Assembly (NCBI RefSeq): GCF_000348725.1
Contig: NC_020813.1
Span: forward strand, 1,836,248 to 1,900,247
Length of the DNA: 64,000 nucleotides
Origin: Pseudobdellovibrio exovorus JSS
GTDB lineage: Bacteria > Bdellovibrionota > Bdellovibrionia > Bdellovibrionales > Bdellovibrionaceae
Reading direction: 5' to 3'
This document shows, piece by piece, positions 32,524 through 39,332 of this stretch. The notes under the pieces were generated by a model, which had not been told where the DNA came from, did not search any database, and saw nothing but the letters and a program-made list of their open reading frames with translations. The first letter of the stretch is position 1. Each line of letters starts with the position of its first letter. The translations under genes and the position numbers were made by a program.

Positions 32524-32542
32524 TGGGGCTTTTGCAGCCCCA
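32524..32542. terminator. Bidirectional terminator
   Basis: The stem TGGGGCT / AGCCCCA with the loop TTTGC is preceded by AAAAAA and followed by a T-rich stretch. It separates the convergent LysR and topoisomerase VI subunit A genes. Confidence 0.85.
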
Positions 32543-32548
32543 GATCTT

Positions 32549-33709
32549 TTAGACGTAATCGCCTTTTCTGATTTTCTCTAAGATGATCTTTTCTGTTTTG
32601 ATCGGATCTTTTGGGTCAACCGAGAAGTAACTTTGTTGCTCGCAACGGACTTTCTCTTTGATTAACCATTTTAAAATATCCGCCAATTCTCTATTCTTTT
32701 TGTCACGGAAGAACGGATCGTTTTCTAAAGCATCTTTCGCTTTTTTCAAAGCTCGCGCTTCTGCTGGATCAGATTCTTTCACTTTGTAGTGAGGTAAATC
32801 GTATTTCTTCACATCCCCAGGCAATACACCCAAGAAACGTACATTCGGCGCACTGAAATCACTATTACGAATCAATGAAGCGGCAGAGCCGGCTTTTAAT
32901 GTACGGAAGATATTTTGCAATGTGTACGCATCCAGATCGCCGAAAAAGTACATCGGTACATCTAATTGATTTTCAATCAACTTACACCAGCCACGCACAC
33001 CATTAGATGGAACCCCTTGAGCACCCATCAAGATACAATTATTACGTTTTGTGAACCCCATCGCTTGCAAAGTACCCGCCGTACCTTCTGATTCAACCAC
33101 AAGGCAAAAATCAATTTTCTTTTTCGCCTTAAGCTTTAAAGACTGAGGTTTATTTTTCGGCTGGAACGGTGACGTTCCCAATGTCGATAGATCCACAACA
33201 GCTTTATCTCCGTCTGGCAGAGCTTCTGTTACTATAAGTTGTTGCGAGTATGTTTGACCACCACGATCATTGGCGAAACAGTTTAGTTCTTCACGATAAA
33301 CTTCTAACATATCACCGATAAAGTCGATGATGCTGTCTGATTCACCTTGGTCATCAAAGTCCAAAGGCTTGTAACGAGAGTCGCCTTTGATGAGACCTTT
33401 ACAGATATAGTACAATTCACGCTTCGTATTGACTGCGCCAATATCTAAATTGCGCAACAAAATCTCGAGCATGAAAACCACACGGGCTAATTTTTGTACT
33501 GAAGATACATTCAACTCGGTTCGAACAACTTTCTCACCCGGAGTTAAGAACCCCACTTTAGCGTTGTAGTTAGAATTATCTAGCGATGTTTTTACAGCTT
33601 CTAGGTAAGGACGTTTTGAGCTTTCCAAGTCCTTCAACATTTTTTCAGCTAGGTTCTTCGCTTCTTTTGGAATATTTAAATTTAAATCACGTACTTTTAG
33701 TAAAGCCAT
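32549..33709 (-). CDS. DNA topoisomerase VI subunit A (Spo11-like)
   Basis: The 386-residue protein shows the type IIB topoisomerase A-subunit layout. The winged-helix CAP domain contains NTKRELYYICKG, where Tyr100 or Tyr101 is the expected DNA-cleaving tyrosine. The Toprim domain has the acidic Glu in LVVESEG (about Glu206) and the paired aspartates in FFGDLDAYTL (about Asp258 and Asp260). The following FRTLKAGSAASLIRNSDFSAPNVRFLGVLPGD is typical. With the B subunit it would pass one DNA duplex through another, removing supercoils and catenanes. The pair begins six bases after the B gene and is clearly one operon. Confidence 0.9.
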   Translation of the reverse strand: MALLKVRDLNLNIPKEAKNLAEKMLKDLESSKRPYLEAVKTSLDNSNYNAKVGFLTPGEKVVRTELNVSSVQKLARVVFMLEILLRNLDIGAVNTKRELYYICKGLIKGDSRYKPLDFDDQGESDSIIDFIGDMLEVYREELNCFANDRGGQTYSQQLIVTEALPDGDKAVVDLSTLGTSPFQPKNKPQSLKLKAKKKIDFCLVVESEGTAGTLQAMGFTKRNNCILMGAQGVPSNGVRGWCKLIENQLDVPMYFFGDLDAYTLQNIFRTLKAGSAASLIRNSDFSAPNVRFLGVLPGDVKKYDLPHYKVKESDPAEARALKKAKDALENDPFFRDKKNRELADILKWLIKEKVRCEQQSYFSVDPKDPIKTEKIILEKIRKGDYV

Positions 33710-33715
33710 TGCTAC

Positions 33716-35410
33716 CTACTTTTTATTCTTCTTAGTGGATTTTTTCGGTTGAACATCTTCTAAAGCTTCCAAATCTTCTTCTGTTCCCAACTTTTTAGCT
33801 TCTTTACGTTTTTGCTCTTCCAGCTTGCTCTGCGCTTGTTCTAAATCACTCATCGCCGCATCTGAATCACGGCCTAAGATTTTCTTCAAGCCCTCTTCCG
33901 CACGTTTACGACGAGATTCATTAGCTCCCGCAATCGCCACTAACTTTTCAACTAAGATCGGACCAAATTGCTCGATATGAGCTAATTTTCTTTCCAGATC
34001 CGCTTCTTTCATTTCGTGTTTGATGTGACGGGAAAGTTTTTGTCCCGCTTGCATCAACGCACGACGAATTTCTTCTACCAACTCATCCGAAGCATCAATC
34101 GTCTCTTTAGACGCATTCTTAAACTTAATAAACGGAGACACCACCGACACCGCAAATACATACGGACCCAATGGCAATGACTCTTTTGGTTGTGCTAAGC
34201 CGTAAGATTTCCAGTTTACGCTTTCAATAGCCCATGTGATCGCACAGCCAGATTTATCAAACTGTAAGGGAACACGGTTCGCGAAACGCAATAATTGAAC
34301 CGGTTGGTCATCAGAACCACGATTAATAAAGCGAGCTAATGAAACTTCAACAACCACTGGCTTAAAGTCACAGATCGTTGGCTTACGAGTCACCACCGAG
34401 AAAAAGTCCACTTGTCCTAAGCGATTGATAGACTTTGATAGCGCCTCTTCACCCACAGTCAAAACAGATTTAGTTGAAGGAGCCATCAAATTGGTTGCCT
34501 GAACCGCTTGGAAAACCTTCTTAAAGTCTTCTTCACTTAAAGATGTCAGCGGTTTTTCTAATAGAGACTTCGGCATACCCGCTTTGACAAAATCAGTTAA
34601 CGCTTGGTCCGAAATACGAGAAAACCCCGTGCGTAAGAACTTCGATAATGTGATTTTTCCATACAGATGAGAGTGAGTGATAAACTCACCTAGTTTAAAC
34701 GTATGAGGATGTGGCAAGGTGGCCTGTGGAATATCTGGAGTCTGTGTGCTGACTCGCTCTGTCTTAATCCAATCACCATCCCCAAGTTTATATTCTACAG
34801 AAACGTGAGGATTCAATAGGACAGTTCCTTCGATATAAGTCAAAAGACCGCCATCACCATTTAGCTGGATACGTCCATCCATTAAAAACTCAACGCGAGT
34901 TCCGTTGTTTTTCTTCCAGTCTAAAGTTTCTTTATTACGCATGATGCCTGTATTTGTTTTAATATCGACATCGATCTGAGCCGAAATGGCTTTGCGCATA
35001 TTTTTAGTTTTAGAAATAACTTGAACACCTTTAGCATTCGTCATCTGCGCCCATGTTGTTGCTGCAGAAATACCAATACCTTGTTGTCCACGGGAACACT
35101 GTCCACGACCAAATTTAGAAGAAGCTAAGTATTCACCGAATACTTTTGTTAAATCGTCCGCTTCGATACCCGGACCATTATCTTCAACAACGATTCTAAT
35201 AAGATCTGTATTCTTAGTGGAACCCGTTCCCACTTTAGTCACTTCAATTTGTAACTCAGGTAAAATTGCATGTTGTTCACAGGCATCTAAAGAGTTATCT
35301 ACCGCTTCCTTTAAAGTCGTGAGTACCGCCTTCAACGGCGAAGAAAATCCTACTTGTTGCAGGTTTTTTGCAAAATACTCAGCTGTACTACTTTTGGTGA
35401 TTTTGCTCAC
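33716..35410 (-). CDS. DNA topoisomerase VI subunit B (GHKL ATPase)
   Basis: The 564-residue subunit carries the GHKL ATPase fold. Motifs in order are AEYFAKNLQQVGFSSPLKAVLTTLKEAVDNSLDACE (Bergerat N-box with Glu35 and Asn39), VEDNGPGIEADDLTKVFGEYLASSKF, and RGQQGIGISAATTWAQM. The transducer domain with KSINRLGQ-like and RFANRVPLQFDKSGCAITWAI segments follows. The C-terminus ends in a Lys/Glu-rich tail. It binds ATP to close the gate that subunit A cuts. The resemblance is to archaeal topoisomerase VI rather than gyrase or topo IV. Confidence 0.92.
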   Translation of the reverse strand: MSKITKSSTAEYFAKNLQQVGFSSPLKAVLTTLKEAVDNSLDACEQHAILPELQIEVTKVGTGSTKNTDLIRIVVEDNGPGIEADDLTKVFGEYLASSKFGRGQCSRGQQGIGISAATTWAQMTNAKGVQVISKTKNMRKAISAQIDVDIKTNTGIMRNKETLDWKKNNGTRVEFLMDGRIQLNGDGGLLTYIEGTVLLNPHVSVEYKLGDGDWIKTERVSTQTPDIPQATLPHPHTFKLGEFITHSHLYGKITLSKFLRTGFSRISDQALTDFVKAGMPKSLLEKPLTSLSEEDFKKVFQAVQATNLMAPSTKSVLTVGEEALSKSINRLGQVDFFSVVTRKPTICDFKPVVVEVSLARFINRGSDDQPVQLLRFANRVPLQFDKSGCAITWAIESVNWKSYGLAQPKESLPLGPYVFAVSVVSPFIKFKNASKETIDASDELVEEIRRALMQAGQKLSRHIKHEMKEADLERKLAHIEQFGPILVEKLVAIAGANESRRKRAEEGLKKILGRDSDAAMSDLEQAQSKLEEQKRKEAKKLGTEEDLEALEDVQPKKSTKKNKK

Positions 35411-35716
35411 TTGAACCCCTTTTTAGGTCAAAAAGAGCCTCAAAAAACGCTGTTTTTCCCCTGTTTTACAACAAAAGAGCATGGATGTTTTGAGGTCTAA
35501 TTCAGTTAATTACATTTCATTCAAGGGGCAACATCCCCTTAAAATCAAGCCCTCAGGGTATTTGCGCCGCGTTAACCACCTGAAATGCACAGATTTTAAG
35601 AAATATTAAACCAAAGAGTTTTATTTCTAGCCAAAAATATTCGCTTTTTAAAAACTCCACCTTGCAATACAAAACCCCACCAGTACAGTGACAGGCCACT
35701 AACGGAGTTCAGTGCC
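35411..35716. other. Intergenic region upstream of topoisomerase VI and the DMT transporter
   Basis: About 300 bases without a plausible gene. A short hairpin AAAAAC-GCT-GTTTTT lies at 35443-35457. The rest is AT-rich promoter-like sequence for two divergent transcripts. Confidence 0.4.
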
Positions 35717-36625: not shown

Positions 36626-36946
36626 TTAGGATTCAAAATCGTCGTCCGTATTTTGCTGAGAAGCCAACTCTTCCATGGCCATTTCAGCGCGGGTTTTATA
36701 GCCCTTTTTCGTGTTGCAGTCTTTGCAACTAGGAACACAATTTTTTTTATCTGACTTTCCACCACGAGCAATCGGAATCAGGTGATCCATGGTTAGCTCA
36801 TCAGGCTTAAACTTTTGTTCGCAGTGATAGCAGATACCTTTTCCTAAAACCTGCTTCCACCAGCTTCCTTGGCGCAACTCACGCGCCTTGGCCTTTTCTT
36901 TCTTTTTATGTGCTTCACTGGCTGGAGCAAAATAGATATCCGACAT
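36626..36946 (-). CDS. HNH endonuclease-domain protein
   Basis: The 106-residue protein carries an HNH/5-methylcytosine-endonuclease-like zinc module: CYHCEQKFKPDELTMDHLIPIARGGKSDKKNCVPSCKDCNTKKG. The two CxxC pairs would hold zinc, and the DH, the N of KKNC and the following residues form the beta-beta-alpha-metal active site. The N-terminus is Lys/Arg-rich. It lacks a recognition domain, so it is either a small nuclease or a regulator. It begins 15 bases after the LTA-synthase-like gene ends, and is probably in that operon. No mobile-element context is seen. Confidence 0.85.
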   Translation of the reverse strand: MSDIYFAPASEAHKKKEKAKARELRQGSWWKQVLGKGICYHCEQKFKPDELTMDHLIPIARGGKSDKKNCVPSCKDCNTKKGYKTRAEMAMEELASQQNTDDDFES

Positions 36947-39023: not shown

Positions 39024-39332
39024 ATGTCAGATGCTAAAACAAAAATCGAAGCGCTACTTAACAGCAACAAAGTTGTCCTTTTCATGAAAGGCACTCAACA
39101 ATTTCCAATGTGTGGATTCTCTGCACGTGCAACGGCTATCTTACAAGATATGGGCGTTGAGTTTAAAGATGTTAATGTTTTGGATGACGAAGAAATTCGC
39201 CAAGGCATTAAAGACTACGGCAACTGGCCCACAATTCCACAATTGTACATTGATAAAAAACTTATCGGTGGCAGCGACATTATGATGGAAATGTACCAAG
39301 CCGGCGAATTACAAAGCCTTCTTAAAAACTAA
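39024..39332 (+). CDS. grxD: Monothiol glutaredoxin (Grx4 type)
   Basis: The 102-residue protein has the CGFS active site in FPMCGFSARATAIL and the GSH-binding WPTIPQLYI and GGSDIMMEMYQAGEL segments. It is an iron-sulfur cluster carrier and sensor rather than a classical reductase, and works with the upstream BolA. An AAGGAG site precedes the ATG. Confidence 0.95.
   Translation: MSDAKTKIEALLNSNKVVLFMKGTQQFPMCGFSARATAILQDMGVEFKDVNVLDDEEIRQGIKDYGNWPTIPQLYIDKKLIGGSDIMMEMYQAGELQSLLKN

Follow-up and report, generated by a model that had tools for sequence, protein, structure and literature searches.

Topoisomerase VI (topo VI), familiar chiefly from archaea and plants, has been reported in 17 bacterial families, with Bdellovibrio bacteriovorus named among its carriers (Allen and Maxwell, 2024; PMC11302465), and a 2023 review also lists the enzyme in this species (PMC11318664). 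According to the 2024 study, B. bacteriovorus has gyrase without topo IV, certain other bacteria have topo IV and topo VI together, and at least two transfers from archaea were inferred for the bacterial enzymes (PMC11302465). The topo VI of Methanosarcina mazei prefers decatenation over relaxation (PMC8837201) and complements an E. coli parE mutant (Allen and Maxwell, unpublished data, in PMC11302465). In the 2023 review, Bd0005 and Bd2865 of B. bacteriovorus appear under the names Top IV and Top II, respectively (PMC11318664). In relatives, represented here by a complete chromosome (G031; locus L265, 6.0-9.4 kb), only one type IIA pair is found, located near the origin and with a GyrA box, and both labels are therefore probably erroneous; judged by position, Bd0005 is probably GyrA and Bd2865 probably topo VI-B.

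Since a 2024 publication already covers topo VI in bacteria, its occurrence in Bdellovibrio and the lack of topo IV in that genus (PMC11302465), the novelty of the enzyme described here is low; topo VI is ordinary for a Bdellovibrio-like lineage and is already known in close relatives. What the present analysis adds is a phylum-wide count of complementarity, a second topo VI lineage, archaeal-like and confined to family f16 in this sample, evidence that the A and B subunits were inherited concordantly within the phylum, and an HNH-nuclease neighbour.

The window, the whole 64-kb stretch of DNA that was analysed, carries topVIB (33716..35410, minus strand), encoding a subunit B of 564 aa, followed on the same strand by topVIA (32549..33709), encoding a subunit A of 386 aa. 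The two genes are separated by 6 bp, and both open reading frames lie where the earlier note had put them. A purine-rich stretch is found directly 5' of both start codons, the GTG of topVIB being preceded by AGGGG, while topVIA starts with ATG. The 306-bp intergenic region 5' of topVIB (35411..35716, minus strand) is presumed to contain the promoter; no sigma-70-like site was found within it. Just 3' of topVIA, between this gene and a convergent gene for a LysR-type regulator, lies an intrinsic-terminator-like hairpin (32524..32542, minus strand; TGGGGCTGCAAAAGCCCCA) followed by TTTTTT. The genes are probably transcribed as a B-A operon. The GC content of the topo VI region (41-42%) is like that of the remainder of the window.

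Family assignment was examined with curated family models. TopVIB scored 521 bits against NF003218 (cut-off 274) and 383 bits against TIGR01052 (cut-off 380.7), and TopVIA scored 443 bits against NF003335, ‘DNA topoisomerase VI subunit A’ (cut-off 424). The Pfam domains HATPase_c and Topo-VIb_trans were found in TopVIB, and TP6A_N and the TOP6A/Spo11 Toprim domain in TopVIA. Among proteins of solved structure, the closest in sequence are M. mazei topo VI-B for TopVIB (E 7.7e-84) and Methanocaldococcus jannaschii topo VI-A for TopVIA (E 6.1e-39). An A subunit of the Spo11 kind, lacking a true topo VI-B partner, was rejected, as a full B subunit is encoded 6 bp upstream of topVIA.

The catalytic residues were audited by alignment with archaeal sequences, and then over the sequences used in the two subunit trees. 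In TopVIA (protein numbering), R97 and Y101 are present, the latter being the second Y of the YY pair and the catalytic residue of the winged-helix domain, as are E206, D258 and D260 of the Toprim domain. TopVIB has E35, N39, D77-x-G79-x-G81, the lid glycines G108, G111 and G113, and the switch lysine K435. The TopVIA sites are invariant in 38/38 main-clade sequences; those of TopVIB show no variation in any readable column (37/38, with a gap or X in one sequence), K435 being present in all 38. As judged by sequence, the residue conservation taken together with the family matches is far beyond chance. Hence the complete two-subunit topo VI described in the earlier note is upheld, with the YY tyrosine, the Toprim acids and the GHKL motifs all kept and the curated models passed.

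AlphaFold models of TopVIB and TopVIA were built from related loci, with mean pLDDT values of 84.6 and 81.3, respectively. The best structural match of the TopVIB model was topo VI-B (E 1.9e-48); the top matches were exclusively topo VI-B chains, and gyrase matched far less well. The model shows the order GHKL domain, H2TH-like helices (about 240-305) and transducer, and predicts long helices at the C-terminal end (442-540) with no Ig-like domain. For the TopVIA model the best match was topo VI-A (E 4.4e-21), and the ten matches at E <=0.001 were topo VI-A and Spo11. Agreement over the whole length of TopVIA was poor (pTM 0.61, TM-scores near 0.5), probably reflecting a badly set hinge between the domains in the model; the sequence evidence for TopVIA is independent of this model.

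The genome, a single contig of 2,657,893 bp, was screened for its complement of topoisomerases, as the earlier note had proposed for gyrase and topo IV. One GyrA/ParC-type gene (PF00521) and one GyrB/ParE-type gene (PF00204) were found, adjoining each other at 4.7-7.9 kb, together with one type IA topoisomerase gene. The 823-aa GyrA-type protein has a beta-propeller of six repeats as well as a QKRGGKG box, which identify it as gyrase. A second type IIA pair, and hence topo IV, is absent: throughout the one-contig genome the single PF00521 and PF00204 matches both belong to gyrase.

Because topo IV is missing from the genome, topo VI is the only candidate for a dedicated decatenase. We are fairly confident that the locus encodes an intact type IIB topo VI (A2B2), probably expressed from a B-A operon, whose most likely role is that of a chromosomal decatenase replacing topo IV; this activity and cellular role are inferred. 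The two-gate mechanism is that of the known family, which is characterized by ATP-dependent strand passage and by cleavage with 2-nt overhangs. By homology, ATP binding would close the B dimer around a captured duplex, the A dimer would cut the gate duplex through Y101, aided by Mg2+ held on E206, D258 and D260, and the captured duplex would be passed through the break. Topo VI would thus decatenate the replicated chromosomes, gyrase would provide negative supercoiling and the type IA enzyme would relax any excess.

The distribution of topo VI was surveyed in 241 genomes of the phylum, each 90% complete or better. TP6A_N was found in 155 of the 241, and two further genomes carry the B subunit. 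Within the window's class, topo VI is present in 105/106 sampled genomes, some of them as small as 1.2-1.5 Mb. The one genome without it (G203) is also devoid of the HNH gene, which adjoins topo VI in its sister G162, and an assembly gap may thus account for the missing locus as a whole. In the 155 genomes with topo VI-A, PF00521 gave one match in 148, one gene in pieces in four (G176, G185, G001 and G038), none in two, and a real second gene in one. Four of the five apparent exceptions to exclusion were therefore dismissed, the matches in each being fragments of one gene that a frameshift had interrupted or that was spread over contigs; the fifth genome (G017) has 5% contamination, and its second PF00521 gene itself carries a GyrA-like box. 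In family f15, topo VI is absent from 77/77 genomes, at least two PF00521 matches are present in 73/77 and at least two GyrB/ParE matches in 74/77. In the phylum, topo VI thus almost never coexists with a second type IIA enzyme, and the two are nearly mutually exclusive. On the GyrA tree the topo IV pattern needs one change and the topo VI pattern four, and with that single topo IV change the complementarity amounts, in statistical terms, to little more than one event. The topo IV of f15 (L273:1884-5488; L275:3473-7000) has a ParC of only ~480 aa, which lacks the C-terminal domain and adjoins parE.

An alternative is that gyrase performs decatenation and that topo VI has an auxiliary task, such as the removal of positive supercoils or knots. 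In seven sampled genomes (three of f12 and one each of f18, f1, f11 and f14) both topo VI and a second type IIA enzyme are missing, and gyrase appears to be the sole type II enzyme, indicating that gyrase alone can suffice where the assemblies are complete. However, topo VI is kept in almost every genome of the class, with its catalytic residues invariant where checked, and is almost never found alongside topo IV. We consider an auxiliary role unlikely. Four of the seven genomes, G002, G009 and G022 (f12) and G015 (f18), are of 1.7-2.0 Mb, with gyrase the only type II topoisomerase found.

The earlier note had also proposed a special role in a filamentous predatory cell, with topo VI separating the many chromosome copies of a filament growing within prey. 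The genome does belong to a Bdellovibrio-like lineage, and the nearest loci are those of Pseudobdellovibrio and Bdellovibrio. Halobacteriovorax, however, is described as a prey-invading predator of intraperiplasmic habit whose division yields multiple progeny (PMC5760749), and G006 (family f15), which matches Halobacteriovorax marinus SJ, lacks topo VI and has a parE of 716 codons followed by a short parC of 481 codons. Predation of this kind therefore needs no topo VI, topo IV filling the slot. Moreover, topo VI occurs throughout the class, small genomes of 1.2-1.5 Mb included. The predator-specific role was rejected on the Halobacteriovorax evidence, and we regard it as very improbable.

Phylogenies of both subunits were used to examine the relationship of the window's topo VI to topo VIII and to the archaeal enzymes. 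In the A and B trees alike, the window's topo VI grouped with its genus, then its family and then its order, inside one Bdellovibrionota clade, and the topo VIII sequences (L220-L225, fused or split B-A open reading frames on viral contigs) fell outside topo VI; in these trees topo VIII and some archaeal sequences form long branches and the archaeal sample is small. That the window encodes a mobile-element enzyme of the topo VIII type is extremely improbable: topo VIII-like open reading frames do occur in viral contigs and in one cyanobacterial plasmid, but those included in the trees were placed apart from topo VI (at 100/99 or better), with fusions in several cases, whereas the window's genes are separate and chromosomal. 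A topo VIII origin is accordingly rejected within the sampling used, and the identification as topo VI rather than topo VIII stands in the phylogeny of both subunits. Besides the open reading frames of L220-L225, a partial one was noticed in a Synechococcus elongatus plasmid (L216), where it is missing from the gene table.

As to the transfer suggested in the earlier note, this holds only deep in time. A recent acquisition by this genome was rejected, as the gene follows the family groupings through the class and has the GC content of the window; throughout the class, and in most of the phylum, inheritance has been vertical. An archaeal origin of topo VI is taken from published trees (PMC11302465). 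The topo VI of family f16 (L174, L175 and L176) grouped with archaeal sequences in both trees, so the phylum holds at least two topo VI lineages; its A subunit is ~30% identical to that of the window, and it replaces the usual topo VI of the phylum. In family f21, the topo VI of L182 (G056) was placed beside or inside the window's family, though its GyrA lies elsewhere; this points to either a foreign contig or a transfer between members of the phylum. Phage records gave no match to topVIB. A contig of 482 kb filed as viral (L218, IMGVR_UViG_3300028558_000016) carries a complete Bdellovibrionota-type topo VI pair and is probably misfiled chromosomal DNA; alternatively, it may be a phage of very large size.

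Of the neighbours of topo VI, a small HNH-endonuclease gene is the most conserved; in the window it lies at 36626..36946 on the minus strand, encodes 106 aa and is co-oriented with topVIB, with which it is syntenic throughout the order. It was found upstream and co-oriented in 84/121 topo VI loci, many of which are truncated, and near topo VI in 17/18 representatives of families f1-f9. In most other families of the order, it is separated from topVIB by tens to a few hundred bp, while in the window's genus other genes intervene. The two were not seen together outside the order. In 34 genomes, HNH homologues (E <= about 1e-23) were present in 16/21 with main-lineage topo VI, in 0/2 of f16 and in 0/11 without topo VI, a co-occurrence that common ancestry may explain. 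That Bdellovibrionales topo VI and the upstream HNH nuclease form a three-gene module is unlikely; if true, a bacterial type IIB topoisomerase would have acquired a nuclease partner. A monothiol-glutaredoxin-like gene, identified by sequence at 39024-39329 on the plus strand and divergent from the HNH gene, is syntenic in 54/121 topo VI loci.

The almost perfect substitution of topo VI and topo IV for each other within one phylum provides a test case for decatenase swapping. Furthermore, the genetically tractable B. bacteriovorus could reveal the function of bacterial topo VI, a question posed previously (PMC11302465).

Compared with known systems, the window's topo VI is equivalent to that of B. 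bacteriovorus (Bd2864 and its neighbour): the two come from one bacterial family, both occur with gyrase and without topo IV, and they belong to different species, no mechanistic difference having been found. The M. mazei enzyme (PDB 2Q2E, 9O0G) likewise has separate A and B subunits, a GHKL domain, an H2TH-like insert, a transducer and the catalytic residues, and its B subunit is ~32% identical to TopVIB; it carries a C-terminal Ig-like domain, however, where long C-terminal helices are predicted in TopVIB. The topo VI of Saccharolobus shibatae (PDB 2ZBK, 1MU5) has the fold in common, its switch lysine K427 aligning with K435, at about 26-27% identity between the B subunits. Topo VIII, the type IIB enzyme of plasmids and viruses, shares the cleavage tyrosine, the Toprim acids and the GHKL motifs with the window's topo VI, but lies apart from it in both trees, is often a B-A fusion and resides on mobile elements.
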